Below are positions 3,346-43,100 of a stretch of DNA of 64,000 nucleotides, one piece after another. Numbering within the stretch: position 1 is the stretch's first letter; each line of letters starts with the position of its first letter. The stretch is from Xanthostigma xanthostigma (lineage: Eukaryota; Arthropoda; Insecta; Raphidioptera; Raphidiidae), in the NCBI GenBank assembly GCA_963575645.1, contig OY754466.1, forward strand, positions 19,818,001 to 19,882,000, in the 5' to 3' direction. Made by a program: the position numbers and the translations under genes. Under the pieces are notes generated by a model that had not been told where the DNA came from, made no database searches, and worked only from the letters and a program-made list of their open reading frames with translations.

Positions 3346-4380
3346 TACTTTGTAGTGGTTGTTTTCTTATTTCTTTTCTAACATATCAACGTTGCCGGAA
3401 TCTTTGGGAGGGTATTCCCTCTATATTCGTTAAATGGGCCCATCAATTAACAATAAATGTTCACCCATTAAGCTCTGTCAATTTTGATATTTGTTTGTTT
3501 GTCTTTCTTCCCAAATGCAGGTTTTGGAATAAGTAGGTCCCAGCTACGACGCAACCCACTGAATGTATATTAAAGTATATATATTCTTGAAGGTAATTAA
3601 ATTTTCTACAACTCCATCTTAATAAATTTCTTTTTCAGATGAATAGTTTAGACGACATGAAGGAATGTTTGATGAAAAATATGCGATAAAAGTTTTTTTT
3701 CGAAAACTTTCACTTTTCTGGGGCGTGTAGCTCAAGAACGGTTGAGTATTTGGAAAAAGTGTATAGAACAAAAGCTGTATAAAATTTTATGAGCTTTAAT
3801 TTGACATAAGAATTTTTTCCCATGCGACGTACTGTTTTTGAGTCCTAAGCTGAAACCCCAAAAGTGGTACCTTCTTGGTGCTCCCCTCCCTCCGGCTCGC
3901 CTCCTAAACGTCAGGACTTTTGGTATGTTTACTCCCTAAGGACCCTGAACAAGTTTCTGAAGAAATCGCTTAGGGGCCTGCTCACGCACTCTACAACTTC
4001 TTTATTCACTGGACTAATAAAGGGAGTTCTGTCTACTGCACTATAATATATATTATTATAAAAATAAATAAATAAATAGTAATTTGGCTGTTCACTGTAA
4101 TGAGCGGTTAGAAACCAATCACTTTCACTTAGTACCACGTCTTGTGACAGGTGTTTGTTAAGCCTGTTATTATGGCTTTTCTGTCCTAGTTAGTGTTGTA
4201 AAACTAACGGTAATTTATTTTTTGTCGTGAACATTCGGTAAGTTTCTGTAATTTTGAGGTTTTCGTCACAGGAGCGGCACAGCTAAATTATTTTTTAAAT
4301 AAAAATAAATTATAATAGTAAATATTATAGGTAAACCAAGTAAAAGAAAAAGTTAAGTTCGCTTATATTTGTTTTGTTTT
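3346..4380. other. intergenic, no gene recognised
   Basis: No supported coding region. Around 4363-4426 there is a perfect hairpin whose arms include atatttgttttgttttt and its complement, overlapping the start of the tandem duplication described next. Confidence 0.5.
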
Positions 4381-4684
4381 TATTAAAGAATGCTTGATTA
4401 TTTAATAAAAACAAAACAAATATAGGTATCTGTATAGTGTATATAGTTTGTTCAATGAGTGCTCATAAGGGGAATGTAGATGGAAAAGTCGAAAGCAGAA
4501 CGTTGACTTAGGAACTTTGTTTGGACTAGTTAGGAGATACATACTAAAAGTCCTTACCCCTTCGAGGTATGCCCGAGGGGGGAGGGCACAAAGAAGGTCC
4601 CGTTTTTTGGTTTTTCGCTTTTATTAAAGAATGCTTGATTATTTAATAAAAACAAAACAAATATAGGTATCTGTATAGTGTATA

Positions 4685-5538
4685 TGTTATTCGCAATAGC
4701 CGAAATCGACCACTGCCCGAAATTTTTGCCCACAACGCGTTGCGGGTAAGGAAAATACTCACAAAGCGTTTTCTGTTAGTTTTTGCGGGGCATGGGTAAA
4801 ATTAAACGCCCACAACGCGTTGTGGGTAAATGCTCGTACCCACTACACGAATTAAAAGTTTTTGAAGCGTCGCATCGGTTTGTGGTCATTCCAATCTACC
4901 CACGTTGCGTTGTGGGCGTCTCTTCTTACACACGATGCGTTGAACATGCTAAGTATGACTTCCTCGGGACCAAAACAAGGATTTCTTCACTGCCTGTGTT
5001 TTAAAGCATGCGGAACAAAGGCATGTTCTTGTGTCAGGAAAAATATTAAGTGCCACTCAAAATGTCACAAAAGCAATCCGTGCCAGAATAAGTAGAGCGT
5101 GGAAGAAAAACATTGTGAATTTTTTGGTATATACTTTCTTATTTAAATGAACTCAGTGTTTATTAGGTATTTAGATACTATACATACATGTTTTTTGGAG
5201 TTAAAATTTTATTTTCATTATAATATAATATGATATTAGTGGTATTATTAAAAGCTATTAGAAAAATTGTTATTATTATTATAATGCATCGTGTGTAAAG
5301 AGACGCCCACAACGCGACGTGGGTAGATTGGAATGCCCACAAACCGATGTGACGCTTCAAAAACTTTTAATTCGTGTAGTGGGTACGCACATTTACCCAC
5401 AACGCGTTGTGGGCGTTTAATTTTACCCATGCCCCGCAAAAACTAACAGAAAACGCTTTGTGAGTATATTTCCTTACCCGCAACGCGTTGTGGGCAAAAA
5501 TTTCGGGCAGTGGCCGATTTCGGCTATTGCGAATAACA
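4685..5538. mobile_element. foldback transposon with 4-bp TATA target duplication
   Basis: The element is 854 bp. It starts TGTTATTCGCAATAGCCG and ends with the exact complement. It is flanked by TATA at 4681-4684 and 5539-5542. The neighbouring uninterrupted copy (4381-4621) has a single gtgtatatag at this place, which supports TATA as the target duplication. The arms are about 255 bp (4685-4942 and 5284-5538) and contain repeated acaacgcgttgtgggc-type motifs. The unique spacer holds a Cys-rich ORF fragment (next entry). The family is not recognised. Confidence 0.85.
4991..5095 (+). pseudogene. Cys-rich (CXC-like) ORF fragment in foldback spacer
   Basis: The spacer reads in one frame as a short Cys-dense peptide ending at a stop (5093-5095). 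The spacing is C-x-C-x4-C-x4-C-x-C-x6-C-x3-C-x6-C, with cores such as CGTKACSCVRKNIKC. This resembles the Tesmin/TSO1-like CXC metal-binding modules found in several transposon-encoded proteins. No start codon clearly belongs to it, because the upstream part of the frame runs into the inverted-repeat arm. I read it as captured or leftover coding sequence from a longer element protein. The function is unknown. Confidence 0.5.
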
Positions 5539-5785
5539 TATATAGTTTGTTCAATGAGTGCTCATAAGGGGAATGTAGATGGAAAAGTCGAAAGCAGAAC
5601 GTTGACTTAGGAACTTTGTTTGGACTAGTTAGGAGATACATACTAAAAGTCCTTACCCCTTCGAGGTATGCCCGAGGGGGGAGGGCACAAAGAAGGTCCC
5701 GTTTTTTGGTTTTTCGCTTTTATCTCGAAAACGGTGTTTCGTACGAAATTTTGTTGTGCTACATAATGAAAGCTGATAAAAATCT

Positions 5786-6787
5786 CTACAACTTTAGCTT
5801 TCACACTTTTTATCTATCTCCAATCTTTGCCTAGCTATGAGCTCCGAAAAATGATCGATTTTCAAAAAAGTGTTAAATTTTCTGTAGCACATTGTAACAA
5901 TACGAATTTTCCAAAATCATTTATTATTGCTCATCCACACTATTAAAAACACCCACACACTATTAAAAAATAACATAATAGTGTTGCCAGTTTATTAAAA
6001 GTAAACTGTTTCCGTCTTCACCGCGTGGAGGCAGGGCCGTCTTTAACCTATTGGAGGCCCTGGGTACATTAGGATAATGGGGCCCCTATGACCTTAACAG
6101 AGCACTAGTTTGTTAGAATAGACAAAGAAAATAGATAAACAAGGTTCTAGATTCTAAGTCGAGGAATGTGATATAAAATGCATATATTCAAAAGGATCAC
6201 GTTCCCAATTTTAACATGAAGAACACAAACAAAATTAAGTATATGAAAAACTAGTTCACTGATGATTTTTGTTTTAAACAGTTTAGGTACTTAGTATACC
6301 ATTAAATTGCAGTTTTATATATTTAAATTAACCTAAACATGCTGAAATCGAAAAGCCTGATTTTCGGGCGAGAATAGAGTAGCTTCGCGCATACAAAAGC
6401 TAAAAAGCAAATAGGTGTTCTAGTCAGTCATTATCGTTTGATTTTTTCGAAATAAATATGTTTTTCGGTAATGAATATCGATTATCGTTTGGTGATCTGG
6501 CAGGAACTAGGGGGTCCCTATCAATCGCGGGGCCCTGGGCACGTGCCCAGAGTGCCCAGTGGGAAAGAGGGCCCTGCGTGGAGGTACTCCCAGCTTATGT
6601 TATTTTTTAATAGTGTGTGGGCGTTTTTAATAGTGTGGATGAGCAATACGAAATTATTTTGACAAATTCGTATTGTTACAATGTGCTATAGAGAATTTTA
6701 CACATTTTTGAAAATCGACCATTTTTCGGAGCTCATAGCTAGGCAAAGGTTGGAGATAGATAAAAAGTGTGAAAGCTAAAGTTGTAG
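5786..6787. repeat. foldback element, arms ~190 bp, interrupted by a hAT MITE
   Basis: Left arm 5786-5979 (ctacaactttagctttcac onward) pairs with right arm 6595-6787 (…gtgaaagctaaagttgtag). A separate hAT-type MITE (6032-6576) sits in the spacer, so the foldback is older than the hAT insertion. No coding content. Confidence 0.85.
6032..6576. mobile_element. non-autonomous hAT element with 8-bp TSD
   Basis: The terminus CAGGGCCGTCTTTAACC and the end AGGGCCCTG form short imperfect terminal inverted repeats. The flanks carry an exact 8-bp duplication cgtggagg (6024-6031 and 6577-6584), the hallmark of hAT transposition. It is 545 bp with no transposase. A relative with a similar terminus lies at 38564-38822. 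Confidence 0.85.
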
Positions 6788-10535: not shown

Positions 10536-10945
10536 TATTATACCACTTTTATACTACCATTCTGATAAAAACTACAAAAAAAGTAAAAAAACTCGAACGC
10601 GTAAAAATAACTAACTAACAGAATGAATATAAAAATGTATTATTTAAAAAAAATGAAATCCGACGGAAAAAATGAGATTAATTACTAAAAAAAAAGGAAA
10701 ACATGTCGGGCCCGTTCAAAATCAACACAAAGAGACAAATAGGTCTTCACCTGCTGCAAGTTGAGATTTTCCGACTTGATTTCCTCGTTTTAGTTACAAA
10801 TTTCATTTTTGTGCAGTCGGAAACTTAAGTTTTTTTTAATATTACATTTTTTTTATTTTTCCTAGAACGCTCTGTAAACTAAAAATTGATAATATTATTT
10901 TTTATATTATAGTGATATTTAAAAGTTTATCATGTATACTTACTG

Positions 10946-12919
10946 ATGTTTTTATTTTTTAACTTAGAGTTGAAAAATGTTTATAATAGTATATCTATAA
11001 TGGCTAAGCATTCATTATCGGCACGTCAGTTCTTGATTCAACAGTTAATTTCTAATATCGTCGCGATGTTATCAAAGAAAACGTGTTTTGTTTTGTTATT
11101 CTTTACTTTTCCACAGTTGTTGTCTTGTGATAATAGTTATTGCTTGTCAAAAATTATTAGTCAAAAAGTTACGCCAGGAAATATTGTTGTTTATAAAGTC
11201 GACACTCAGTCAAAAAGGTTTCAAAAATTCAATTCTACGAAACCGACGATCTTAAAATATATTTTAAATAATTCTTATAATTATTTTGAACTTTATCAAC
11301 GTTTAAATCTACAGAAATACTACATCTGGCAAATAGTTACTGACATAAATAAGAATATTTCTATTGTTGGAAAACCGAATTGTTATATTATACAAATTCA
11401 ACTACAAAATATTTCATTTTTTAATAAAACGCTGGAAGCAATAATGAAACATCGAAATTTTAATGGAAGAGCTCAAATCGTGATTGATATAATTTCAAAC
11501 TATGACAATTTCAATGAAAGGATCAGTGTAGCAAAAATGATCGTAAAAGAATTCTGGATACATAAAATTGCCAAGGTCATAATAATAATTCAAAATGAAA
11601 TTTTTACTTGGATTCCATATACACATGCGGAAAATTGTGGAGAAAAATTGGAAGACAAAAATATTCTATATTTTGAAAATTGTACAAATGAGTCAATTGC
11701 AAAAATACCATATCTTTCGAGGAATTTGAATCGTTGTGTATTTAATATTTGCACGTGGGTTTGGGAACCTTACATTCTTCCGCCGTTAAAAAATGACCCA
11801 AAAACTTTAGAAACAATTTACGATTCTGGTATCGAGATTAAAATGATGTTTGCATTATCCGAAAAAATGAATTTCACTCCTGTTTTTCGAACGAATCTGT
11901 CCGCTCTGCCTGGATTAAATTTACTGCCATTTTTTGAAAGACCTGGATTCGATTTCGCCATGTCTACTGTGATACCACTTTTAAAATATCATGAAAAGGC
12001 GGACAGCACAATAACTTACCTTGGTGACTCTTTGACGTGGTTCGTGCCAAGAGCGCAAGCCTCTTACGATTTGACTATAAATAATATCTTTTCATTAACT
12101 GTTTGGTTTCTATGCATTTTTTCTATAGTTCTCGTTACGATTTTTGTATATTTTGTGAGCAAATTGCAAACCACCAGTAATATGGATATTAGCGAAATAT
12201 TTTTCAGTCTCTATTATATGTTTTATGGTGGTTGTTGTTACATTAAACAATACAATATTACGACATTAAGGCTTATATTAGTATTATGGGCACTCTTCTG
12301 TTTTCATTTTGACGTTGCCTATCAAACAAAACTAACAAGCCAATATACAGAACCAGTTCTCGAAAAACAAATTTCTAATGTAAGTGAACTTATTGATTCG
12401 GGAATTAAATATGGATTTATAGATAACGTGACGAATTTTTTGATTGATCCAGATAAAAATTATCAAACCATTATTAAAAATTTTGAGTCGTGTCGAAATT
12501 CAGGTTTGAAATGCCTTAGAAGAGTTGCTTACAAAAGAGATTTTGCTTACGTCACCAACCGATTGTATGCAAAGTATTTTATAGAAGATCGCTATATCTA
12601 TGCTTTCGAGAAAAATCTGATGTCTTACAATGTTGAAATGCTAGTCAAGAGAAACCATCCCTATTTAGAACAAGTGAACAATATTCTTGGAAATTTCTTG
12701 TCTGCTGGACTATTTGAGAAGTGGCGTACAGATGTTATTTTAAATCTAGAAAAAAAGAATCAAAGCAACAATAACGGAGAGCCTAATAAATTGACATTAA
12801 AACAAATGAGAGTTGCATTTTACGTATTTTTCACAAATCTGATCATTGCCTGTGTTGCTTTTTGTTGGGAAATCATTTTTAAACAAATAAAATTAAGAGA
12901 AATGTTCATTTTCAAATAA
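10946..12919 (+). CDS. divergent ionotropic receptor (IR), intronless chemoreceptor
   Basis: This is an uninterrupted 657-codon ORF. The likely true start is Met41 (11066), because MLSKKTCFVLLFFTFPQLLSC is a good signal peptide; from Met1 the signal would be internal. The architecture fits insect variant ionotropic glutamate receptors. An extracellular amino-terminal part runs to about residue 260. The S1 ligand-binding half follows (VWEPYILPP about 272-280, GIEIKMMFALSEKMNF about 295-310, TWFVPRA about 364-370). TM1 is at about 382-403, the pore loop at about 413-437, TM2 at about 439-458, then S2 (about 465-615) and TM3 (about 621-645) with a short cytoplasmic tail. The pore has no SYTANLAAF motif, only a loose FHFDVAYQTKLTSQYTEP equivalent, as in divergent IRs. 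By family knowledge it would be a ligand-gated cation channel subunit in chemosensory dendrites working with an IR co-receptor. The ligand is unknown. No neighbour paralog is in the window. Confidence 0.93.
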   Translation: MFLFFNLELKNVYNSISIMAKHSLSARQFLIQQLISNIVAMLSKKTCFVLLFFTFPQLLSCDNSYCLSKIISQKVTPGNIVVYKVDTQSKRFQKFNSTKPTILKYILNNSYNYFELYQRLNLQKYYIWQIVTDINKNISIVGKPNCYIIQIQLQNISFFNKTLEAIMKHRNFNGRAQIVIDIISNYDNFNERISVAKMIVKEFWIHKIAKVIIIIQNEIFTWIPYTHAENCGEKLEDKNILYFENCTNESIAKIPYLSRNLNRCVFNICTWVWEPYILPPLKNDPKTLETIYDSGIEIKMMFALSEKMNFTPVFRTNLSALPGLNLLPFFERPGFDFAMSTVIPLLKYHEKADSTITYLGDSLTWFVPRAQASYDLTINNIFSLTVWFLCIFSIVLVTIFVYFVSKLQTTSNMDISEIFFSLYYMFYGGCCYIKQYNITTLRLILVLWALFCFHFDVAYQTKLTSQYTEPVLEKQISNVSELIDSGIKYGFIDNVTNFLIDPDKNYQTIIKNFESCRNSGLKCLRRVAYKRDFAYVTNRLYAKYFIEDRYIYAFEKNLMSYNVEMLVKRNHPYLEQVNNILGNFLSAGLFEKWRTDVILNLEKKNQSNNNGEPNKLTLKQMRVAFYVFFTNLIIACVAFCWEIIFKQIKLREMFIFK

Positions 12920-13232: not shown

Positions 13233-14001
13233 CCGGGTGAGGCAATAGTTCCGGAACGGTTGAATATCTCGCATACTACGCATCATATAAAAAAAAAATT
13301 CGTGTCAAATATTTTTCGAAAAACTATTTTTTGATACCACACATGACTCCCCACCCCCCACCCAGTAGGTGGGGGGGAGGGGCAACTTTAAAATTTTAAA
13401 TAAGAACCCCTATTTTTATTGCAGATTCGGATTCTACGGGAAAAATTACATCAATTTTACTTCGATCGTTTTTTTCGATTCGCGACCGATGTTGCGGTAA
13501 TCGCGAAAAACTTAAAAAATCAATCCAATTTCGCAATAATGGATGACATTCCATTCACAATTTCGAAGTTTCCCCACCCTCCACACACTGGTTGGGCGGT
13601 GGGGGGTCATGTGTGGTATCAAAAAAAAGTTTTGCGAAAAATATTTGATACGTATTTTTTTGTTTTTCGATTTTTGCGTAATATGCAAAATATCCGACTT
13701 TTCCGGAAATTATTGATTTTTTAAGTTTTTCGCGATTACCGCGACATCGGTCGCGAATCGAAAAAAACGATCGAAGTAAAATTGCTGTAATTTTTCCCGT
13801 AGAATCCGAATCTGCAATAAAAAATAGGGGTTCCTATTTAAAATTTTAAAGTTGCCCCTCCCCCCACCAACTGGGTGGGGGTGGGGAGTCATGTGTGGTA
13901 TCAAAAAATAGTTTTCGAAAAATATTTGACACGTATTTTTTTTTTATATGATGCGTTGTATGCGAAATATTCAACCGTTCCGGGACTTTTGCCTCATCGG
14001 T
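13233..14001. repeat. foldback element, arms ~280 bp, with a third internal copy
   Basis: The ends ACCGGGTGAGGCAA and TTGCCTCATCGGT pair, and the arms continue through aacggttgaatat, gataccacacatgactcccc and gcagattcggattctacggg. A further copy of the cacatgac-ccccacc segment lies between the arms at about 13570-13650. Short ORFs in the arms are mirror images and not genes. No clear target duplication. Confidence 0.8.
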
Positions 14002-17660: not shown

Positions 17661-18792
17661 ACTTTTACTGATAAACGAAATTTATTCCTCCATACTGATA
17701 ATAATTTGTGCATTGTGTTTCCATCTACAGAAATCGGAATCCCTACGATTCAGCGCAGCTGATCTATTTAGTCGGAAACCTTGTGTGTTTGCTTTTGCAG
17801 TTTGCTCGTATCAGTAAGTTCTCTAAATATTGAATAATATCTCGATGTGATCGTTATACTACGTAATGTGAGAAATAAAAAGTTATGAATCTTGCATGGA
17901 TTGTAATACAGCAAAATACGATGTTACCGATTTCATAATCTGAAACAAAAGTTTTCTCTAAAATTTACTTTAATGAACTTAAGTAACAAAATGATAACAC
18001 ACATTTGTATACAAAAATAAATAGTATAAGACAGGCGGATGATCAGAGAACGAAGTGTTACTAATACAGGGGTTACGTTTTTATCATTTTTGTTTTTCGA
18101 AAGCCAATTATTTATGATTTATAAGAATATTTTGAATAAAATAATCCTTGATTAAAATCTCTTCCTACTTAGTTCGGTCAAAAAAATAAAGTAGGTATCA
18201 ATCACGAACTCTGTAACCAGGACAGTGGACACCCAGTTTTATAGTCTAGGAGCCAGTGGCCGGCAGACTATAAGTATATTATCACCAAAGATGATATTTT
18301 GCTCAATGACTCTCCTATACCTACCATACATGAGATGTGAAGTCACTAAGTCCAGCGAAGGTAGCTATGACGTCACTCTGCAGGTAAGAGGTACGAAAAT
18401 CAGATCAAGTTCGGAAGTATTTTAACAAAGCTGCCGTTTGGATATATTCCAGAATATGATTATTGCGACCAAAAAAAACAATGGCAGGCGATTTGGCTGG
18501 TTTTAACCTTATGGCAGACGTTTTTGAAAATTAAAAATAAATTTTTTTTCAAAAGTAATTCACCAAATCTGATTTTTAAATGTGTTGTTGGTAATAGTAT
18601 TATCAGCTTATTTTTGAAATGGCAGACGTTTTCTCCGGTTGTAATATTTCGGCAGACGACAAAATATTACTTACAGTGCAAATAAATGTACCTACTGTAA
18701 TTACTTTGACTTCTATGATTTCTGCATGCAAACGGATATATTATGAAAAATATATGAAAAAATGGTACTTTAGCCTGGGAAAATTAAGAAAT

Positions 18793-19997
18793 TCAGACCA
18801 AATAATTCATGTAGTTTTGAAAGTTGCTACAGTTATTCCTAAAGGTGTCCAGATGAATATACTAAAAGCCCCCGAGGGAGGGACACGAGCCGGCGTTGGG
18901 GAAGGGGGGGGGAAAGGTGTCCTTTTCAAGGTTTTTGCTTGTGACTCGAAAACTATTTATAATATCTCTTTAGTGACTTCTACATTAATTATCTACATTA
19001 AATTTCCTATAAATTATGTCTAAACATTTTTACTGTACGATCAATACTTTATGAGATACAGAGTATTAAAGGTGATAAAAATAAGAAGCTAATTCTTTTT
19101 TTTTGATCAAAAGCCATTACTAAAGAAAATAGCAACTGTATTTTATAACCCAACATCAACTCCGGATGTTATAGCAGAAGACGGAGAAAAAATGTTTCTT
19201 GAAGTATACCGAGCGCCCTGTACTCAGTCTGAGATTAATAGACATCGATTCACAGTTTTTCTGAAATCTTGTACCAAGCCCAAACCGGATCTTTCTTCCC
19301 TCCCCCCTACCAAAGGTTCAGCGAAATATCACGCTTACAGAGTATTCCATCAAGTAGAGGAGTGGCTTGGGCACCAACTGCCTCCTGAAATATGGGGTTG
19401 GAAGCGAGGAGTAAATGGAAACTTAGAACCAATCACGACCTTGAATCCTCCTGCTCCTGACGCGTTGTTAAGTTCAATTTTTTGCCGATGTAAAAGTGGT
19501 TGTTCTGGAAAATGCAGTTGCCGAAAAGCGGGCATTAAGTGTAGTCTTATCTGTAACGGCTGCCTAGGAGCTTATACTAATGGAGCCCTCATCGATGTTA
19601 ATGATAAAGATGAAACACAATTTGATTGATAAGTCGGCATACTCGTGCAAAAAAATTTGTTTAATTTTTCAGAATTAAAATTTGTAAAACGATTTAGCTT
19701 CTTATTTTTATCACCTTTCATACTCTGTAATCTGTATCTCCTAAAGTATTGATCGTACAGTAAAAATGTTTAGACATAATTTATAGGAAATTTAATGTAG
19801 ATAATTAATGTAGAAGTCACTAAAGAGATATTATAAATAGTTTTCGAGTCACAAGCAAAAACCTTGAAAAAGAGACCTTTCCCCCCTCCCCTACCGCCGG
19901 CTCGTGTCCCTCCCTCGGGGGCTTTTAGTATATTCATCTGGACACCTTAAGAAATAACTGTACCAACTTTCAAAACTACATGAATTATTTGGTCTGA
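18793..19997. mobile_element. foldback element carrying a CXC-domain ORF
   Basis: The left arm (18793-19092, from tcagaccaaataattcatg) is the reverse complement of the right arm (19693-19997, to attatttggtctga). The arms are about 300 bp with a few mismatches and small indels. They include a G/C-rich block (ccccgagggagggacacgag) and a block ending aataagaagctaa. The 600-bp spacer holds an open frame that starts at the arm boundary (19093). No obvious target duplication. Confidence 0.85.
19093..19629 (+). CDS. transposon-type protein fragment with CXC Cys-rich module
   Basis: The frame is open from just inside the left arm (stop at 19090-19092) to the TGA at 19627-19629. The first ATG is at 19192, giving 145 aa. 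The C-terminal part reads WGWKRGVNGNLEPITTL, then PPAPDALLSSIFCRCKSGC, then SGKCSCRKAGIKCSLICNGC. This matches the C-terminal signature of a widespread invertebrate family of uncharacterised, repeat-associated proteins (…WGWK…G.L.PI…PAPD.LL..I.C.CK.GC…C.CRK.G..CS..C..C). The upstream in-frame stretch KPLLKKIATVFYNPTS also fits that family. The N-terminal two thirds or more of the usual protein is missing. The Cys pattern suggests metal binding; the role is unknown. I regard it as a captured fragment, although the absence of stops over 178 codons means expression cannot be excluded. Confidence 0.6.
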   Translation, partial: FFFFDQKPLLKKIATVFYNPTSTPDVIAEDGEKMFLEVYRAPCTQSEINRHRFTVFLKSCTKPKPDLSSLPPTKGSAKYHAYRVFHQVEEWLGHQLPPEIWGWKRGVNGNLEPITTLNPPAPDALLSSIFCRCKSGCSGKCSCRKAGIKCSLICNGCLGAYTNGALIDVNDKDETQFD

Positions 19998-20521
19998 TCG
20001 ACGATTCTGAAACTAATTTTCTTAGACTACTTACTACTTTATAATAATGGATGGGGAAGACGGACTGTTTAATAATAATTATTATTATAAAAACATTTTG
20101 TTAATTTATAATAATGAAAATATGATTTAAGTTTTTACCTAATGTGGCACAGCCAAAAAGGAAGGGTTATAAGTATAGCAATCTATCAAAGTCTGTATTT
20201 ACGGTCTACGGATGTTCCACCGGATCGCCTAAACTATTCATTCGATTTTGATAAATAATATCCAATCGATTCGTTATTATGGTCTGGGTAGCATAGGCTA
20301 CATTTCTTTTTTAATTTTGGTCCCAGGGGTGAGCAAATTGGAAACAAATAAAACATAATTTCAAACAAGCCAGAAAACGGTCCATCTCGAAACACAGCAA
20401 ATCTAGATTTCCTAGTTACAGACTTCGTGGTTTTAAGTTTCATTTTTTGGCTTTCCTCTAAAAATCTGTGGGTCTCCGTATTATGTGTGTGATTTTGTAT
20501 ATATTTTTATAGAGACCTACT

Positions 20522-20584: not shown

Positions 20585-23500
20585 CTAGGTGTATGAATTA
20601 CAAAGTAAGAATGGTTTGTCTTTGGGTGTTGTTAGATAACGTCTGGTAGTCAATATAGGTAAACATATTTTGCCGTCATTCTTAAATTCATAACTAAATA
20701 TCGAGGTGCTGGTTTGATATTTTTGGCGCTTGAGCTAGGCGGAAGTCAACATTTTTATTTCATTCCGTCAAATTAATACTTACAACTATAAATGTTTGTA
20801 AAGTAACAGAAAATGATTTTCCAGCGGTAATTAAAACTGGCCTTTGGGCTCTTTGTATTATTTGACACATACTGTTTATGAATTTCGTATCTCCTTCGTA
20901 CCATTCACTAAAATATGCCGCTTTTGCTACTTTGGTACTCTGGAAGAAACATAAAAAACTTTATCTGAGAAATGTTAAGCCCTTTTATTAGCTGTTAATA
21001 AAAAAGAACAAAATGTTCAAAATAGTTTTATTCCGATTAGAAATAATAGCCCAGTGCATTTAGGAATTGACCCAAAAATTTCAGATACATTTTTTCTTTT
21101 GTTGCTCATTCGAAAGGGTCTTCAATGGAGACCTTAACCCTGAATTTGCGCATTCTCCAAATTGCGTCGTCCGCCGCCACCTTGGATTCTGTTTTTTTTT
21201 CTTCAATTGCTCATATCTCATAAAAAAAAATGTTTTTCCCCTGTTTTTGAGGATGCATGGTGCTGGTGTTGAAAATTGCCGTCGACTCTCACCAACTCCT
21301 CCACTGGCCAAATCTCAAAATCAAAATTCACCCGTTTTCGAGTTGTGGTTTTTGGCCGTTTTAGAGGGCTGCGCAACCCCAAACTAAGATTTTAATATCA
21401 CCACCGTGTTCCGCATCCTCAAAAATGGGGTGGGGAGTAATCTCGTTCCGGTTGAAAATATTTACATGTTCGTCCGACTCACACACGGCACTATTAATCT
21501 GAGTTATAAATTTAAGTAAAAAATTAATGTAAAACGCGTGTTCTTTCGTTGGTCTTAATTAATTTGCGTTATATTAGTAATAAAAGCGAGAAATGCAGCG
21601 CGAAGCGCGAGTATTGGAGGCTTCAAAATAGCACGAAATGAATAGCGCAACTTCGAGTTTGATTTGGTGAGCGAGGGATCAACCGATCGGGATGAATTTT
21701 TTTTTAAATACTGGAAATTTAGTCTACTTTAAATACTAAACTGTCGGTGGGGGTCTCAGATGCACTGGAAAAAGATGCGTGCGGAAAGACCGGGCGCAAA
21801 AACTTTTGGCAAAGAAGTTGTAACTTTGGACGCTAATAACTTTTTTCCAGTACATTGGAGAGTTTTATTTGATAGACATTCGATTAAAGAGTAAATCCTG
21901 ACGAGTCCAACGACCTTAGAACGATTTATGTGGTATTATTAGAACGCGAGATATGAGCAATTTGGACAATGCGCAATATCAGGGTTAAGGTCTCCATCGA
22001 AGACCCTTTCGAATGAGCAAAAAAAGAAAAAATGTATCTGAAATTTTTGAGTCACACCTATAAAATGTGTCTAAGTGCACTGGACTATAAGCCGTTTTAT
22101 ATGTACTTATCACAGTCTCAATTTTCAAATAAAAGCGTGTTACATTTTAATAGCAAGAGAGAGAGAAAAAGACGGTGTAACGCGTTTTTATTTGAAAATT
22201 GAGACTGTGATAAGTATGGTACATATAAAACGGCTTATTTCCAATCGGAATAAAATTATTTTAAACTTTTTAGTTCTTTTTTATTAACAACTAATGAAAG
22301 TTTTTTTTTTTAATTTTTTTAAACTAAGTTTTATTCAGAGTCTATTTACCTGGTACATTATTTGACTTCCAAACCAACAAAGAACAAAAATTTCCAGAAT
22401 GCATGATGTTAAAAAAATACCATACAAAGGCATTTTGATAATATCGATATGACCATCCTGTGAAATATAAAAATACAAAATTCACAGCTTAAAAAGTTTA
22501 CATTTAATATAAATTACTTACCAAAATCGCTTTAAACTGCCAAAGAATCACACAAGTGCAAGGTCCTTGAGTAACGAAATGAAAGAAATTGACAGGGGAG
22601 ATTATTTTATTTATTTCTTCGCAAAAATTCAAAAGCTTACAATGCAATACAACGCATTCAGCCAACAGTTTGTTGAGTTCCTTATTCAGTTTCTCTTTAA
22701 AATCGTCATCATTGTTTTCAGTAATATTTAAATTTATCAGTTTTTGTTTTGCTCTTTCGCGAATGTTTTCTAAATTTTCACACAGTAATTCAAAGCCACC
22801 GTAAATGTAAATCAATACGGCAAATATGATAGCATCGTGGTTAGAAATACAAATACTGATCATTTGAGAGCAAATAGACAAGTAGGCGTAAGTTATTTGA
22901 TACGCAGGAGTCTGTTGTTCGTTGTACGGAAACCATGTATGGTAGGGCAGTTGTCTTTCTGTGTTCATTCCAGGATTACTCTTCGTATCCTTATACATTA
23001 CGAAAAATGGCAAGAAAGAGTAGAAAATCGACGTTCCCAAAAAAGATGCCGGATAAAATTTACAACAAAACAGTGAAAATTTATAACTTCTCTTATAAAT
23101 TTTCAAATTAGAAGTCGTACTGATATCAATGCTGTCATTAAGTGAGTTTAAAATTCTTATTACAGCTTGACTTTTATGTCTCAAATTTAAAATGATACAT
23201 ACTGGAAAAAAAGAAAATATTTGAATTGTTGTGTGAGAGTTTAAAACCCTTGCGGTACACAGTTTGTCCCGAAAATAAAATAGTTTTTTGTTCAAGAAAA
23301 AAAAAAGTATAATGTGTCAGCAGCGTTGTGCAAGTATATAGTCAAATAATTAATTAATCAAAGGGTAGTTATGAGATTTGGTCTAACCAAGTAATTTTTT
23401 TCAAAATAATTTTTCTGTTATTTTTTGCATTAAGTTCCTTTTCGTGTTTTAGAGACTTTAAATAAATAAAAAGTTTTTTATTTTCTGTAGAATAATAATT

Positions 23501-28125: not shown

Positions 28126-31100
28126 CTGAAAAATTTAAGTTTAAAATTTTAAGTGAAAATATTTATCTCTGCACCTGCCTGAAAGTTATAAACACAGCAT
28201 ATCTGCAGCGCTGGATTTACACTAGACAGAGGCACTAGGGTAAGGTGACCATAATGTGGGACAGAGAGCGTCTATTGTATGAGAAGCAGACGTAATAGGC
28301 GGAGAGCTGACGACGAATTTAGGGTATGTATTTCATGCAAGTTGAAATCATAAATAAAAAAAAAGTATTTTGTCAATGGGTGAATCTGGAATTGCGAATC
28401 TGCGGTTATTTCCAGGGGCGGCAAAATTAGGGAAGTTGAAAAAATTTGTTTTTGCATTGTAGAAAATTCTTCGAAAAGTGTGACTGTGTTGAAAACATTC
28501 ATGAATCAAAATAAATAAAATACTTTTTCAGTCAGACGCGTTTTCCTCTGAAAAGATGTATTATATCCCTCAATTGATGAGCGATCGTTTTGTTTGTCAA
28601 TTTATGATTTTTAATACGAAAATGAATGTTTTCTGTGTAATTATCCCATTTATAATAAAAAGGTTTTTGACTATAAATGTATATCGAACCTTTACCCATT
28701 TTATGTAAGCTTTAGATAATGGGGCGGAATATTTTATGGTGCCCCAGGGCGGCACTTACGGTAAATCCGATCCTGTTGATATTTGAATTGTGCTTATAAT
28801 ACTTATCAACTGACGACTTCTGGAAAAGATTTTATGTTTTAATCAGATCTAGAAACACTAACCTGGAACAACGTGTTGTCTAAAAACTTCATCAGCTTTA
28901 TCTTTGTTCTCTTTCAAAGTCTTCAAATCTGATTCCTTTAATTTATCAAAAGCGTCATTTGTTGGTGCCAACAGCGTCAAATCTTGACTATTGTCTCGTA
29001 AAGTTTCCTCGAGTTTCGTACCACTAACAATTTCCGACAGAACTGAGAATTCTGGTTTACTCTTGATGAGTTCCAAAATTGAAGATTTTGGTGGAACCAA
29101 TATTTTATTAACTTGGTGAATAACAGAACCGCAAGCTTGTTCATCGAAGTTTACTAAACGTGCACAATTAATTGTTGCACGGTTAAATACATTTCTGAAT
29201 ACTGGGAGCTGAAAACAAAGACAATGTTATGTTTCTAGTGCGTAATATTATGACGAATGTGACACTTTAAAAACGAGAGACAGTGTGTCACATGAGTCAT
29301 AATATTATCACGCACGAGATAAATATAGTATTTTTTGCACGGACAGTGGCGTAGCTACCGAGGGGCTAGGCGGGGCAGTGCCCCGGGGTCCTCAAGCTCG
29401 GGAGGCCCTCGAATCCTTACCAGAAAATCTCGATCGAACTGAACTTTTGAAAATCTCCTTCATTTTCAAAATAAATATGACAGGTTGCAACCCGACTTTA
29501 ATCATGGCAACTCAAATGAGAGAAATTCGAAAGTTATACCCAGGGAATTCTCCTAAATTCTTTCTGTGGGTTGGCAGTGTTGTCAATTTGACGGATAGCG
29601 ATATATTATTCATCGATATGCGTTTTATTATGAATTCGAGTCAAGTTTTTTTTTTTGAGAACGGTTAAAAAATTAATGCTGTATCAGGAGTGTAGGTATA
29701 AGCTAATGTCAATAAACTTTTTAGTACTGGTCAATATAGTGGTTCAATTTTATTTGATTTTACCATATTATTTGAGTCACTATCAATAGAAATATTTTAT
29801 CCAGAAATACTTGCAGAAGGCTGACTAAAAAACTTGTCAATTTTGGTTAATTTTTGTTTACTATCTTCTCTTTCTTGGCGTTTATTGCGTTTAAATGCAC
29901 CACTGGGTTTCTTCTTTTTGTCCATAATTTTAGTTTTCCAAATGTATAGATTTGACACGATTTATTGACGTGACGGACATCAATATAAGTGGTACTAAAA
30001 ATTTTAGTACCACTTATATTGATGTCCGCATCAAGCCTGAATTTAACCGAAGTCATTGATACTTTTGCAAAAACTAAAGCTAGAAAAAGATTGTAAATAT
30101 AATTGTTATTTAGTCAGTTGGTAGGTCCGACCTTTATATAACAAACCCTTGAATCTTTTCTATTTCGTTTTATTGCCCAAATCTACACCAAGTATTAATT
30201 GTAATTTATGTTGTTACTGTTAAATATTTTTATTACCTGCCCTGCAGTGCACAAAAAAGAGCTGATCATATCAATAAGAGCTTTATCATCGATGATAAAG
30301 TAGCTTAGCATTTTTAAAGTATTTGTATATTTAATATTTTTACTTGATAAAACCTAACCAGTTTAGATAGCAGCGGGGCCCCATTTTTTTATTTGCCCCA
30401 GGGCCCTTGGTTACCTAGCTACGCCACTGTGCACGGACCCCCTATAGAATAGTTTATTTTAACATAATTTTTAAAAATGTTGAACAAGTTCATTTTCAAT
30501 TGTAGACTGCGTCTGACTTTCATACACAGCTATACCTACTATGTTTCGGATTTCTTTTGTTTTACTTTACGCACTAGAGCGAAATGGGTCATTACCGCTA
30601 CACATGCATAAAAGGCATCTATTTTATAGGGGGTCGTTCAAAAAAAAAATATAATAACATAATTGTGAATCTTTTATAATTACGACGTAAACAAAACTAA
30701 AATGAGTAAGTATGTGAGAAGAGACTTTTTAGCTCGTTGGTTTATTGATCTTGAACGAAATTTTCGATCGACTTTAAATAGTAGACGGTTGAATATGTAA
30801 TGCAAAAGTTTTTTAAATGAAGCAAAAACTCTTAAGCGATAATTTAATTCCCATGCAGATGAACGTTTAACATTTATTTAATGCAATTACCTAAAATTTA
30901 TATTTTCGAATTTGATAATGTGATATTCGAAAATAAAAAACTCGTAACCCCGAGAAATATCCATTTTAAAAACCATATCAGAATGCAAGTGAAAATATTG
31001 TTTTGATTTACAGAATAATAAAAACGTAAACAGTCGTCACTTTTAATAACTACGATATAATTACTTTATTAACAAAGCGTAAAAATATTCGATCAAATCA

Positions 31101-34100
31101 TAATAAATTAAATGTCACGGAACATAAATTTTGCAAGTACATATACATTCACCAAGGCCGTAGAGAGGTGCAGAGTAAGATATTATTCCTCCACCATTCC
31201 AAGATCAAGTTCAAAACCTTAGTTGTTTAGCTCATAATCCCCATCTCCCCTTGAACTTACGTCCTAACTTCAATCTTGATGTTCACTCTCGGTGAGTTAT
31301 CTAATCATAATATATAAATATAGTTTAAAAAAAACTAAAAAACACGCCTTTTCGTACATCGAGCGCTCCACGCTTTTATCACAATAATACTAGTATTTTT
31401 TAATCACTATTGTTTTAAGCTTATTTTAAAAAAAATATTTTTTACTTTTTAGTTCGATATAAAACGTGCTTTTTAGTTTTTTTTAAACTATATTTATTTT
31501 TCACTTTTTAGTTTGATTTAAAGCGTGTTTGTTAGTTTTTTTTAAACTATATTTATTTTCCACTTTTTAGTTCGATTTATTGTCAAAAATTTGCCGAAAA
31601 AAAAACAATTTTTTTTTGGCGTGGACGGGATTAGAACCCACGACCCGTGATGCCGAAAGTTGACGTAAGCGAAGACCCGTGCTTTAGACCGCACGGCTAC
31701 CCACTGTACTTACAGTGCTGGCATATTATACCACTATATAAACCACTTGCTGTAGTCCAAATGGAGATTACAAACATACATAAGTACATACAAACTTACA
31801 AGTGAAACTAATATAAAGCGTGTAAAAATAAATAACAACTTACGGTTGAGTATAAGTTAACTCTCAGTTTTTCACCAGCCATTTCAGTTTCCAATTTTTG
31901 ATTATCGTTAAAGTCGCACGATTTCAATTGACCGTCGATAGTATGATATTTAATGAATTCTTTAAGTTTTTCTGGGTTATTTCTAATTGCATCAATTTCA
32001 TCAGCTGACTGATTAAATGCATAATTAGTTGGAACGAACAAGCTGACATTTCTCAAGTCTTTAATATAATTTTTAAGACCAGCATTTTCAATGAGCGAAT
32101 AAAAATCAGTCAAATTCTGTTTCTGTAATAATTCGTCTGTGTCCAATCCAGAGTCAGGCAAAATAACGCTGTCAATCATATGAACAATACCGTTGGTGGC
32201 TATTATATCAGGTTCTACAACTAGTATATCTGACTCAATAACCAACTGATTGTCTTCGTTTCTTCTCAAATGAAGGACTTCGCCCTCAATATTGTGCGTG
32301 GTTGCGTTCATTGAAATTGCACTTGAGCATACTGTGTGAGCCAAAATATGATGCTTCAAAATATCTGGAAAAATATATTAAACGAAAATGAGAATGTCAC
32401 GAAAACAATAACAACCACGAAGATAATGACAACGAAGAAGTAACTTTACTAATTTCCTGAAATTAAGAGTCTAATAGTTAAATACACAATTCATAACAAG
32501 ACCAATGATGATACACAAATAACACATTATGTAAAGACTTCTTTATGGCAACTTTTCGACTAAAATTTTTATTTTCGCTTTACAACTTTTAGTGAACATA
32601 ATTTCAAAAATACATCTGTTATCAAAAAATAAGACTTACTAATTGCACAAGCATCTCCTTTGAGCAATTTTCCGCGAACAGCCGGTTCCAGTTTATCAAA
32701 AGCAGCATCACTTGGAGCCAAGAAGGTATAATGTCCTTTAAGATCAAATTCTTTAACTAAGTCAGCTTTTTCCAAAACTAAAATGTAAACAAATTGTATT
32801 AGTATCTCAAAGTTTTACTGACAAATATTTTTGTTATATAATTAAGCTGATATCATGATCAGTTTAAACAATAAATTCCATTCAAAAAAGAAAATGACCA
32901 GCTAATTTAAAATTTTATGACGATCTAATTGCATTTTCAATTTTGTTTGAACAACCTCCAAACTACAAAAAATATATAGGATATTATTAATGTTCAACGA
33001 GTCGTAAAGTTTTTTATCGTGTTCATGTTAATTACTCGATCAATTCAATACCTACTTTTATTTAGAATAGAGAACTTCTTGCTGCTAGCAACAATATCAG
33101 TAATAGATTCTGTAACTGGCGTGATTACTTTATCAACAACATGCACAACACCGTTAGATGCAATGTTGTTCTTTTTTATGACACGAACGCAGTTGGCCGT
33201 GAAGAGGACATCATCGGTCGGTGTTGGGTAGATGTTGATTCGGATTGGACTCTGCTGATAATCGCTGTGCAAGAGATCTTCGTTGGAGACTTCATTCAAG
33301 TCCACCATTCCCGGTGTTATGTGTGCGAGGACAAGTTCGCGAGATGAAATGGCGTTTTTCAAATCTTTGTTATCACGACGTCTTCTTGCTGGTGCTACCA
33401 AAAGTTCGACTTCGTTCTAAGAAAAAATAAAAAACATTTGTTCGATCTGCACATGTACTTTTGGTTTATGTACATAAAAAGTAAATGAAGGATAAAAATA
33501 AATTTTACAAATTAAATTAAAACTACACTTTGAGGTATATAAACTGAGAAAGCAACCATAATAGATCACGAATGCTTTTTAACAATAAATTCTCATTTCA
33601 ATTGTATATTTTCAGTCGAATGTAAATTCCTCTAAGTCCCCTAATGAATCATTCATAAAGTATACACATTGTTATTTAGATTATTTACTGACACAAGTGT
33701 CTGTTGTCGACTCGGTACCTGCTGGTACCGGTATTAGGTACCTATAGGTGAGGTATGGAACTGATAACTCGATGAGTCATTCATTATGTAATGGCTAAGA
33801 TAAACATCCCGACGACTTGTGAATACAAAAAAATGTAAATATTATTTTTTTACGTCGTTTCATAAAAATAGTATAATTTTTCGGAAATTATTTAGTAATA
33901 AGATATTAATTCAATATATAGTAGAATAGATTTAATTTACACCTTTTAAAGCATATTAGTGCTAAGTTATTTGAAATGAATGTTAACAGCAACAGTATAA
34001 TAACTAATTAATGAAAACGTGGATACGTTTAAAACTATTTTTTTGCAAATTTAAATAAGAATATACATAATATAATTTGGAACTATTGGGAAAAATCGTT

Positions 34101-37100: not shown

Positions 37101-40100
37101 AGTATTGACTTCAAATAGGTTCAGTGGTTTAAAAAATACACGCAATTTGGTGTAGGTACATTTTATACACATAACAATATTGTCTAAGTATCGTATAATC
37201 CGTATAAGAATCTTCTAGCAATTTTCACTGAATTTTTTTATATTTATTTACTTAAAATTATTCATTTCAACAGGGGGTATGAAGCCCTAACGACAGTTGA
37301 CATGTATAAACAGCAATATTAAGGTATGTTTGATGATATTTTACCACGTTTTTATTAACTCGTTTTCTTGTGTGCCGTCTTGTATGGCTGTACGGGTGGA
37401 ATTGTGTAATTGATTTTTCCTGATGAGATAGTCTTGAAATTTTTAAAAAAACTCAGAAATAGATGACAATACGAGAAAATACTAAAAAGAAGAAAATAAT
37501 AAAACAAATAAAAAACATTTTTAATATACCACGTTTTTAAAACGAACTAAAAAGTATAAAATTATTTCTTTACAGACAGATGTTTAACTTGTAGGATTTG
37601 AAATGAAAAACGTGGGGCGCACTATTCGTTTTATCTCATAAATAGTTTTTTTCATTGATAGCTACTGTCTATACTTCTTATATAACTCCGCATGCGTCCC
37701 ACGTTTTCGTTTCAAATCCTACACGTTAAAAATCTGTCTGTAAAGAAATTATTTTACACTTATAATTGTTTTTTTTTTTATTTCTTTTATTTTATTATAA
37801 TCGTCTCAGAAAATTCTAGAATCAAATTGTGATTTATTTATTTCATATAAAGATAATAAACGATAAAATATTTATTAGCATATTAAGCTTAAAATTTCTT
37901 TATCAACTACCAAATTCTCAAAATTACTCGGATATTTTTATATCAACTCTTTAGATTTGTTTTTGCTATACAATGGCGCATGAAAAAAAGAATCTTCCGT
38001 TTTGTTGTTTGGATATTAATAATTCTATTACATAATTAAATTTTCTAGAAATGTTTATTTCAAAGCATTTTAAAGATTAATAAATTTGTCGATATATAAA
38101 CAAGCAAAAAAATTAGCAAGGTTCTTTTTATTTTATAATACAACGAGGTCAAGTATACCTACACGATAAGGCAAATTATAAATCAATTTAGTGACGGTTC
38201 AACTATCACCAAAGATTTCCGTCTCGCTTATGTCTCTTTCAGTAAATCATTTTATAAGTAGTGACAATGCACCTGTTTTATTCAATATACTTCATTTGCA
38301 TAAACTGCAAAGAAACGAAGTTCAAAATCTATGGAGTCATTGAAATGGCACGATAACCCTCTGCAATTTTTATTTGACAAAATTATTGTATTTTTTTTAA
38401 ATTTTGATCTACAGTAAGCCAACGGTTAATTTTCGAAGAGAGCGACGAAGTTCTTATACAGTTTTTTGAAAATCTTCGATTTTTAAACAATACTAAGTAA
38501 CTGACGACAATGCTGCAGCTAGGGTTTGGCAAAAGGGATACCAGGGGCGACTTGATACTGCATAAAGGTCGTCTTTAGGTGTGGGCCGACCGGGCCCGGG
38601 CCCCTAGACATTAGGGCCTCCCTCGAAAATATAAAAAACTGAATGGAGAAATAAATAATTGTATCAACAGTAAACAATAAAAAAATATATTTGCGATAAA
38701 TTAAAAATGGCCTATTAAAACATTCATAAACATTGATCTTCTATTGACCCATTACGAATTCCTTAAAGGGGCCTCCAAGCTTTTTTCGGCCCAGGGCTTC
38801 GCGTGTTCCAAAGACGGCCCTGTACTGCATCGTTCTATGATGCCACAATTTTGTCTCAAAACCTATGTTACACAGGTTATAAACGCGATATACCTAACTT
38901 GACCATTTATTTTTTTTCCTCAGAACAGGACACCCTAAATTATAATTGTTAATTGAAATGACATATCAGCAGAGAATGAAGACTTTGGTAGTGAGACTGA
39001 ATCAAAACTGACTATAAACAAAAAAATTTGTGCAAGAGTATTAAAAGTAATTTATATACTTTTTGTAAACTTTTTGAATCTACCGTTTTTTTTCTTAATC
39101 TACCGCTTTATTTAGGTGCCGTTTTTTAAGATACCAGGCAACATTGACTATGCACGTGCGGGCGACAAGACTTGCTTGTTGCTACGTTTTTGTTTTGTCA
39201 AAACGGGACATTTTTTTACGTATTTTGTGGACAGCGGGACACTTAGCTTAAAAGCTGGACTGTCTTGCTCAAAGCGGGACGTGTGGTTACGTTAGATATA
39301 CGGTATACCGTATACTGCATGTCCTGCTAGAAGTTAAAAAGTAGAACGTCAAGTTGGGTGGGATAGCAACAGCCTTCTATATTTTCTACAATTTTCCGGC
39401 ACTAGCGCTGAAATTTTAACAGTATACGGCACTATGGTTACAAGGTAACACTAACGATTGGCATAAAAAATGGTTTTTTGATGGTGTCCCATCCAACTTG
39501 ACGCACATAATGTAGAAGGTGTGTTGCCCTGTATAACCAATTATATAGGTAATAATAAATCCACAGATTAGTAACTCATTTCCTCTCATCCACTAATTGA
39601 ATGCCAGGGTCACACATGCGCGAATCGTATGCATATGCTAACATGCACTGGTATACGCCCATACTAATATAACGAAATTTAAATGAACGGAAAACGCGTG
39701 TAACACTCCATTCTAGAATATTGCAACAACGTGGTTTGTTACCGCTCTGTGTACTTGACTATATGCAGGGTCGGACTACTAAAAATGATTTAAAAAATAT
39801 AAATTCTAAATACAAATGTATATAAATAGTAAAATACACTTGTTTAGAAGGAAAAACATGTTAAAATGTATTTTATTTGAATACGCCAATTTCGTAAGTT
39901 CTGTAACACTAAAACCCTATGGATCTCCGAATAGGCCAGTTCCCAGATATTTGGGAAATTTAAACCCTGCTTAACAAAAAAATACAATGGTTGGCAGGCT
40001 GGAGTGGGCCGGACCGTGAAAAAAGGGCAATTCCCAGTCACCCAAAAATGTATGCATCTTCGGATAGAATGTTGTTTACTTTAGTTTACGTTTTAACGTG

Positions 40101-43100
40101 CTCAAACTCGTATGGTTCTGGTTCCCATGGGCTGAAACCCCCGCCAACCGCGTCTAAAGATGATTTGCCAAATAGGTATTCTTACCTCATAACCAAATAG
40201 GTTGAAATGACATTTAAATGAAAGATTTTAACTTTTAAAATCGTTTCGTGGTGGGTGGGCATGAGGTTGGCGGCCCTTCATTGAAAAAAAAGCAATTGGA
40301 TTTTTTAATGAATTCTTTTTTACATAAATGGAAAGATCACATACAAGTTTTATAGCAAAACTACGTTATTTTATTTTTTAACCTTATAATTAAAAAGTCA
40401 TAATATGAAATTTAAAAATACTTTATAGCTATTTCGATGACGTCGTAATGTGTTTATATTTTGTATCTATGGTGATAGTACACAAAATAAACATAATAAA
40501 AAAGTGTTTTTAATTTCGATATAACTTTTTAATTATGAGGTAAAAAAATAAAATAAACGTAGTTTTGCTATAAAATTTGTATGTGATCTTTCCATTTATG
40601 CAATAAATAAATTTCATTTAAAATTCAATTGGCATTGGAGGGGGTTTCGGCCCACCGGAACCCGCCAACCTACCGAGTTTAAGCACGTTAAGAACGTAAA
40701 CTTCAAAATAAAATAAACAACATTAGGTATATTCGGAGATGCATAGGATAACCGTTTTTTTGGGTGACCGGAAGTTACCCCTTTTTCACGGTCCGGTCCA
40801 CTCTAGCCTGCCAACGATTGTATTTTTCTTTTAAGCAGCGTTTATATTTCCCAAATATCCATGAATTGGCCTATTCGGAGATCCATAGGATTTTAGTGTT
40901 ACGGGCTCTCATACTATAGCTACATAATAAATAAGGCCTCTTTATCTGCCTAGGCTTCTTACTGCTTCTCCGCAGACTACAGACAAATGACGTGACGTCT
41001 TATTCGAAATCTCATTTATTGATATTTTTAAAAATTAAAAATGACGGATAAATTATTTTTCCCCTGCATAAATCTATTTCAATACTCAGTGAAAAATGGG
41101 ACAACACCCAATTGCTTTGAATTCGTTAATTTGACTCAAAATTTGTCTGTCTGACAAAAACTTTTTAACGGTACCTCCGATTATCATGAAATTTGGACAC
41201 AACATTCATCTCGGTAAAATAAGATGATAACATCCGTTCTTTTACACCCGGCTGAAACCGGGACGGACCGCTAATGTTAAATAATATGCAGATAACCGTG
41301 ACAATTAATAATGTCGTTAGAAACGAGCAAACAGTTCGTCAAAAAATAAAATTGTTATCCGTGAAAATATAATAATATATAGAATTATGTTAGAAATAAT
41401 TTTTGAAGTGAACAGGTTCGTAACCTTAAAGCACGAGTCCGATACTGAGCATATACTATTTTTAAAGTGGGTCTAGCATCTGTAACCTACAATCTACATA
41501 ACAATAGAGAACGAAACAGAGAAGTTCTCTTCAGCAATTACTGGAACGTTGATTAGCGAGGTACTGTCAACTCGGTACTAAAGCAAAGACTTCTTGTAGG
41601 TCAGCTAGCGTATAATGCAAGTGTAGTTTGTTTTGGGTTTTGCACATATCAAAAGTAGAATATGTGCAAACTGCAAAACATCAATCATCGTTCAGTATAA
41701 ACAAGACGTAAATTGTGTTTTTTTAACCAGAGAGAAATGACCCCGAATTTTATAACGAAAAATGGTTTGAATCGCACAAATCAATTTACTGAATATCAGT
41801 TTCAACCTCAAAAATATTATAGGTGTGTCTGTACGGAAAAATGTAGTCGATCCTTTAAGCCAATATAAAAAAGTCCAGCCAATTGGGTGATAAAACCATT
41901 CCAATTAGGCTTTTGAAAAAAAAATAATTATCGATTTTTTTATTGTATTTTAAAACTTTATTATAAATAATATTTGATAATCGATGCGAAAAACTTTCAA
42001 AAAACTTTTTTTAAATTAATTATAAGCAATTTAAAATTGATAAAATATTTAAAAAAATCACGTGACTGCAAACGCACAAAAATTGTTTTTGACAGTTGTG
42101 ACGTCATAATGGTAAAATGTATATACGCAGTATACTATCAATGGCTTCTACATGTGTATTGACTAAAACATTATGACGTCACATTATGTTCGGGAAATGT
42201 CGGCGCGTTCTCGGAACTGGGTACAAAAATTTATTTTTAATTTGATATAACTTTTGAATTATAACGAAAATAAAAAAAAGAAAAATAGTTTTGTTATAAA
42301 ACTTATATACGATCTTTCCATTTATGACAAAAAAAAAATTTCATTCAAAAGCCCAATTTCATAAATATTGACATTTGGCATCACTATAGTATAAAACAAA
42401 GTCGCTGTTTTCCTCTATATCTGTTTCTCTGCAGCTACTTCTAAATCACGCAACGGATTTTGAAACGGTTTTCACTAATAGAAAGAGCGATAAACAAGGA
42501 AAGTTTGTGTTTATAATTTTTAAATATTTTGTGCAAAATGGCTGAGCCATGACGGTGTTTTGTTTCTTATTTTTGATAAGCTCATTGATGTCAGGTGTCA
42601 TATTTGAGATACTTAGTTTCAGAATAGATTTTAATCGTGGGCCATATTGAGATGGCTTGAGGGCCGGATGCGGCCCGAGGGCCGTATCTTCGACATCACT
42701 GATGTAGAGAGATCATCAAGCAGTCAATCCATAAATAAATTCATATCGTCTACCAATATTATTATAGTGTGTATTGTTCTTTTGTTTTGTTGTTGGGACA
42801 ATAGAAAATAAGATAGTCAGCTTAAAACTTTTCGAATCAAATTTTTAGAAAGAATACATATTACGATTTCAAAATATTTATCCATACTTCTGGGTCATTC
42901 TTCAGACAACTGTTTAGACGTAGATGGCCAACACAATTCAAAGAAAAATAGTACTTTAAGTCTCTAGAACAGAATCGCCGAAAGTACTGTTTGTTAAAAC
43001 TTAATTTACAACAGTTTATTATGTCAGTAATGAAATAGTCACGAAGTCATTAAAAAAATGTCTGCATAATAAACAATTTCCACGCAGATGATTTTTCCAG

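Follow-up and report, generated by a model that had tools for sequence, protein, structure and literature searches.

How a foldback structure comes to hold a coding frame is the question raised by a locus in the genome of Xanthostigma xanthostigma, where two long inverted arms enclose an open reading frame (ORF) that ends in a cysteine-rich module of the CXC type. The frame could be captured cargo, a working protein or a relic. We analyzed the locus within a 64-kb stretch, referred to as the window (C3:19818001-19882000 of the 623-Mb, 28-contig genome), and compared it with its genome copies. The window element is a shortened, non-autonomous DNA transposon in which the tail of the transposon's gene persists. 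In all likelihood, its full-length kin encode one protein of about 1450-1520 amino acids, with an XPG/FEN1-fold nuclease part near the C-terminus and a CXC-like tail, probably of the AcademX group, and the window ORF is the last part of that gene, remaining after an internal deletion of about 1.03 kb from an element of about 2.2 kb. The ORF within the foldback is an ordinary remnant, and the part worth following is the candidate rule for the ends of the element.

Extent and copies of the window element

The original prediction is correct: two inverted arms surround a spacer, and a 178-codon frame has a Cys-rich module at its end (Table 1). The arms are identical at 294 of 304 aligned bases, with 12 additional gap columns, and the spacer between them is 585 nt long. 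The extent first given for the element, 18793..19997, covers the arm edges only. These edges were ruled out as termini, since no convincing target site duplication (TSD) is found there and the alignment of copies puts the ends outside. Specifically, conservation among the genome copies continues past the arms for ca. 22 nt on one side and ca. 32 nt on the other. The compared set has 14 copies, namely the window copy and 13 of the 14 10-kb stretches fetched from the genome; L043 has a single arm and was left out. Their alignment sets the element at 18771-20029 (1259 bp), with TSD CTT and with the two tips of Table 1 as its true ends. A perfect 3-bp TSD flanks 13 of the 14 copies.

The left arm has at least 41 matches in the genome, at least 40 of which are near full-length, at no fewer than 34 places; the window's own match is counted, and the numbers are lower bounds as the best 40 of 197 candidates were scored. 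The matches outside the window are 95-98% identical to the window arm. Inverted arms are common in the window itself, which has 11 selected pairs with spacers amounting to about 7.8% of its length.

Table 1. Coordinates of the window element, its parts, and two further elements (positions within the window)
Feature	Position	Strand	Remarks
TSD, left copy	18768..18770		CTT
Short left tip	18771..18792	+	22 nt, TAGCCTGGGAAAATTAAGAAAT; same letters in 14/14 compared copies
Left inverted arm	18793..19100	+	box AAATAATTCATGTA at 18800-18813, nt 30-43 counted from the element's left end
Open frame, C-terminal remnant of XPG/FEN1-fold transposon protein	19093..19629	+	178 codons; first Met is codon 34
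Internal-deletion junction	19097..19105	+	inside a T run; ~1027 bp of copy L034 absent
Cys-rich module	19483..19563	+	CRCKSGCSGKCSCRKAGIKCSLICNGC
Right inverted arm	19686..19997	-	
Long right tip	19998..20029	-	32 nt, reads TAGTCTAAGAAAATTAGTTTCAGAATCGTCGA inward
TSD, right copy	20030..20032		CTT
Second element, non-autonomous, long arms, with CXC reading	4685..5538 (about 4681-5542)	+	CXC 4985-5092, stop 5093-5095
Third element	21047..22087		TAG tips 21 and 33 nt outside arms; TSD TAA

Origin of the reading frame

The 178-codon frame exceeds the longest frame found in 2000 simulated 585-nt sequences (149 codons; order-1 Markov model, window composition) and in 40 simulated 64-kb windows (172 codons). 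Read in six frames, the 64 kb contain two matches to a relaxed CxC...CxC pattern, at 19483 and 4991, and 60 simulated windows contain none. The frame had been taken to start exactly at the inner edge of the left arm; it is indeed open near that edge, but it opens 8 nt within the arm, and that edge has no ATG. The suggested relation to the Tesmin/TSO1 CXC domain found no support in a Pfam scan, in which the TSO1/CXC profile had no match up to E 10 in the window ORF or in the 434-codon and 1449-codon ORFs described below; a divergent relative is possible. Searches of phages, viral contigs, and prokaryote contigs gave no relative of the ORF, and no Rfam family or tRNA was detected in the window. 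The predicted fold of the 178 residues alone is uninformative, with a predicted local distance difference test (pLDDT) score of 33.4.

The other 13 copies of the set are larger, twelve of them spanning 2157-2439 bp and one 1648 bp. Their arms, as delimited by blastn, are 94-99% identical and measure 642-667 nt in 11 copies and 752 and 824 nt in the remaining two. In 11 of the 13, the arms extend into the coding region, and the last ~90-97 codons including the Cys module are present in both arms. The interior encodes a nuclease-like protein with the stretches VVFDGYDD, ASDADC, GEDVDLVVLL, and HSFSGCDTTSAI. It is open for 434 codons in L033, and by our own reading the first ~37 of these run antisense through the arm. 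The copies examined thus carry a larger homologous interior and not an unrelated spacer, and they bear out the earlier view of a mobile, repeat-associated unit holding the Cys-rich tail of a large transposon-borne protein family. Neither outcome named earlier as counting against that view, unrelated spacers between the arms or a lone chance insertion into a parent ORF, was encountered. Compared with L034, the window copy is missing the stretch that runs from the left arm to the FDQKPLLK residues of the frame. The frame therefore only seems to start at the inner edge of the arm, because the internal deletion joins the arm to the coding part. The T run followed by AG at 19113 was considered as a 3' splice site and rejected, as the 2.2-kb copies code continuously there (IIKIFDQKPLLK), which makes it a deletion junction.

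Full-length relatives are present in the same genome. Their frames of 1449-1521 codons lie between long inverted arms of their own, and they likewise have tips and TSDs. In these elements, the right arm adjoins the gene's 3' end; in one relative (C4), the final 27 codons of the frame fall inside that arm. A fold model compared by Foldseek places an XPG/FEN1-type fold near the C-terminus of the protein. The long arms may have arisen when the 3' end of the gene was copied, inverted, to the opposite end of the element, for example during gap repair; the 27 codons in the right arm of C4 fit this, as does the CXC part that each arm of the 2.2-kb copies contains. The window element would have moved in trans, mobilized by an autonomous relative whose protein recognizes the TAG tips and the boxes inside the arms. 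Subterminal arms that reach the gene's 3' end, followed by internal deletion, would provide a route to foldback elements with coding spacers.

Several points weigh against this reading of the element. The best full-length relative shares 46% identity with the window ORF and 55% with the 434-codon frame of L033. An intact autonomous parent with exactly these tips was not found in an N-terminal search that scored the best 45 of 184 candidates. The fold model was built on seven sequences and has a mean pLDDT of 67.7, with the Cys tail below 50, and the fold comparison is a re-examination of Foldseek's 1000 best chains. The transposon protein has neither a Pfam match above cut-off nor an informative PDB sequence match. 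One of the 14 copies (L032) is without a matching TSD (AAT versus AGA). Finally, the probability that the window frame escaped any indel, as calculated from arm divergence, is just 0.08. The region C3:23790655-23801700 was considered as a possible parent and rejected, being a 2.2-kb type copy broken up by other sequence including zinc-knuckle frames. There, L043 and L052 belong to a window-family copy split by several kb with a 1147-codon frame and a zinc-knuckle frame, and the interrupting sequence is probably a nested retroelement.

The arms themselves could be what is maintained. Transcribed into double-stranded RNA that feeds a host small-RNA pathway, they would let the palindrome persist as a source of silencing RNA. 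The predicted transcript folds along the arms with a minimum free energy of -608.8 kcal/mol (raw value, without shuffled control), but every long inverted repeat folds likewise. The hairpin of the 2.2-kb copies would include transposon coding sequence, because their CXC coding part lies in both arms. We consider this explanation unlikely.

Still less probable is that the CXC tail is kept as a useful protein, for instance one that binds DNA and represses the autonomous element, and that derivatives retaining it are favored. All 178 codons of the window frame are intact in spite of the low chance of escaping indels. Both CXC patterns of the 64 kb sit inside foldback spacers, although these make up so little of the window, and a second long-arm family, with arms unrelated to those of the window element, has a CXC reading in all eight fetched copies. 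No purifying selection is evident across the coding region that the copies share, which speaks against the earlier idea of a minimal mobile unit. Compared with the majority row, the 14 copies (of which the window copy and L042 are partial) have 63 non-synonymous, 2 nonsense, and 20 synonymous changes, giving a ratio of non-synonymous to synonymous change (pN/pS) of 0.93; reshuffling predicts 22.7 +/- 4.0 synonymous changes. For the CXC part alone, 14 matches with at least 95% coverage fall into seven distinct rows, which differ by 12 non-synonymous and 2 synonymous changes and of which two are frameshifted. With a pN/pS of 0.93 and a synonymous count near expectation, these copies show the pattern of a frame without function. 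Moreover, the first ATG comes only at codon 34. As for substitutions, the intact frame is unsurprising (probability of no stop 0.64 from arm divergence), and retention of the CXC part is explained by geometry because the gene's 3' end adjoins the right arm. The remnant ORF would yield no selected product.

We give almost no credence to the idea that an unrelated foldback element picked up an exon of a host gene as cargo. The spacer does have coding sequence, and its G+C content is above that of the arms (0.40 versus 0.35), but the same coding region extends upstream in other copies and recurs in the full-length frames. The ORF is to be read as the C-terminal part of the element's own nuclease-fold protein, spared by an internal deletion.

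Unequal tips and neighboring elements

In six lineages, the element begins with TAG and the arm starts at an unequal distance from the two ends. The window family has tips of 22 and 32 nt in 13 of 14 copies, and of 22 and 31 nt in L044. In a second lineage (L045), the tips are 30 and 20 nt, with a perfect 3-bp TSD at each of the eight evaluable pairs; a ninth pair (L075/L076) was not counted because its right piece is too short, and as the right tip of L045 itself is unrecognizable, that of the lineage was taken from its other copies. Single copies represent three more lineages, with tips of 30 and 40 nt and TSD CAT (L053), 37 and 27 nt and TSD GAG (L054), and 34 and 24 nt and the low-complexity TSD TTT (C8, a full-length relative). 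The two tips thus differ by 10 nt in five lineages, three of them known from single copies, and by 12 nt in the sixth. The arms of the window family and the L045 lineage are unrelated, as blastn finds just 14-nt and 20-nt pieces with E ~0.2. Both lineages nevertheless carry a 14-nt box, AAATAATTCRTGTA, whose first base is nt 30 counted from the end with the short tip and nt 40 counted from the end with the long tip. In the register of the box (33 and 43), L053 reads TAATT, and L054 has no box of this kind.

The orientation of the interior relative to the unequal tips also varies. It is one way in five copies, the window copy among them, and the other way in nine. The opposite orientations suggest flipping through arm recombination, which would turn the interior round relative to the tips; the pattern comes from comparing copies at different loci. 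Taken together, these features hint at an XPG/FEN1-fold superfamily with a '12/23-like' rule of its own, a reading we favor less than its negation. Each element would combine a short-spacer end with a long-spacer end, the two spacers differing by one helical turn; synapsis would require one end of each kind, and the long arms would recombine and flip the interior between fixed unequal tips.

Within the window, TAG tips with a 3-bp TSD were found for only 2 of 12 scanned inverted pairs, 18793-19997 and 21068-22054. The long-arm inverted repeats 5786-6787, 13238-13996, 1355-2819, and 39903-40902 lacked this combination in the scan. The pair at 21068-22054 belongs to the third element of Table 1, whose left tip shares 14 of 16 positions with the tip of the C8 relative. 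Its family is abundant, with 609 first-look genome candidates, of which 40 were scored. The TSD matches in all three evaluable copies of five examined; L083/L084 (right tip unrecognized) and L085/L086 (box mismatch, TSD AAT by eye) were not scored. No coding remnant was seen in the third element, and the link of this family to the superfamily is weaker for that reason.

The second element reads LHCLCFKACGTKACSCVRKNIKCHSKCHKSNPCQNK just within its left arm, directly followed by the stop. Its arm has at least 40 genome matches at 97-100% identity, its own included, among the best 40 of 183 candidates. Its family does not have the unequal-tip pattern, as the arms reach the element ends, where all eight fetched copies have 4-6 bp YAYA direct repeats. 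The similarity of its CXC part to the window ORF has an E value of 0.03 without composition correction. This was dropped as evidence, as with correction E is 8.0, a chance level (a meaningless match at 13878 has E 0.067), and the link was taken from the pattern and its place instead. The CXC tail is the sole basis on which this family may be put into the same superfamily. The flank around the second element is tandemly duplicated (4372-5723), with 185 bp at 4440-4624 repeated identically at 5539-5723. Because of this identical duplication, the neighboring flank copy represents the empty site for an insertion at TATA.

Other frames in the window lie on either side of the element and give it an insect-like look. 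They are a ligand-gated channel frame, ionotropic-receptor-like, at 10916-12919 (+), an odorant receptor frame at 22504-23316 (-) that matches 7tm_6, an insect-typical family, with E 2.9e-21, and fasciclin-domain frames at 28861-33416 (-).

Comparison with known systems

The encoded protein differs from FEN1, Exo1, and XPG nucleases in its low identity to them (11-15%), with no Pfam match, and in that its nuclease part stands behind ~1000 unrecognized residues and is followed by a Cys-rich tail. With foldback elements such as Galileo and Tetris, the window element shares a short spacer between long inverted arms. Foldback arms are the element termini and are often internally repetitive, with longer TSDs. 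In contrast, the ends of the window family lie 22 and 32 nt beyond the arms and its TSD is 3 bp, which makes the arms subterminal.

AcademX has an XPG-type nuclease paired with a Cys-rich protein. The likeness lies in the nuclease-fold part of the encoded protein, in the 3-bp TSDs of the window family and the L045 lineage, and in the 4-6 bp direct repeats of the second family. According to PMC10045372, AcademX makes TSDs of 3 or 4 bp, and the TSD lengths of the two Academ lineages are tied to the helicase and the nuclease they encode. Membership in AcademX is probable, as judged by two described features, TSD length and nuclease fold. TAG tips outside long arms, 10-12 nt apart in length, do not appear in the parts of the Academ descriptions examined. 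The asymmetric ends discussed in the relevant passages of PMC3627910 are those of Helitron2, and Academ is mentioned there solely for its helicase. Among the papers listed by a literature search, none treats Academ together with a helical turn, which does not establish the end rule as unpublished.

The Drosophila P element offers a parallel for the ends. According to PMC7776569, the P element makes TSDs of 8 bp and carries perfect terminal repeats of 31 bp, and the distances of 9 and 21 bp from terminal repeat to binding site are likened to the 12 and 23 bp of recombination signal sequences. As in the P element, the spacing of the inner site at the two ends differs by about one helical turn, and internally deleted non-autonomous copies are normal for P as well. 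The window family differs in its 3-bp TSD, and the transposon protein has no sign of P homology (no Pfam match). In our view, the parallel would be an analogy of working, not of descent. If the end rule is true, a RAG/P-like spacer rule exists within a lineage having a different nuclease. If functional, it would add a further one-helical-turn end rule, and whether such rules arise wherever a transposase pairs two non-identical ends becomes testable.
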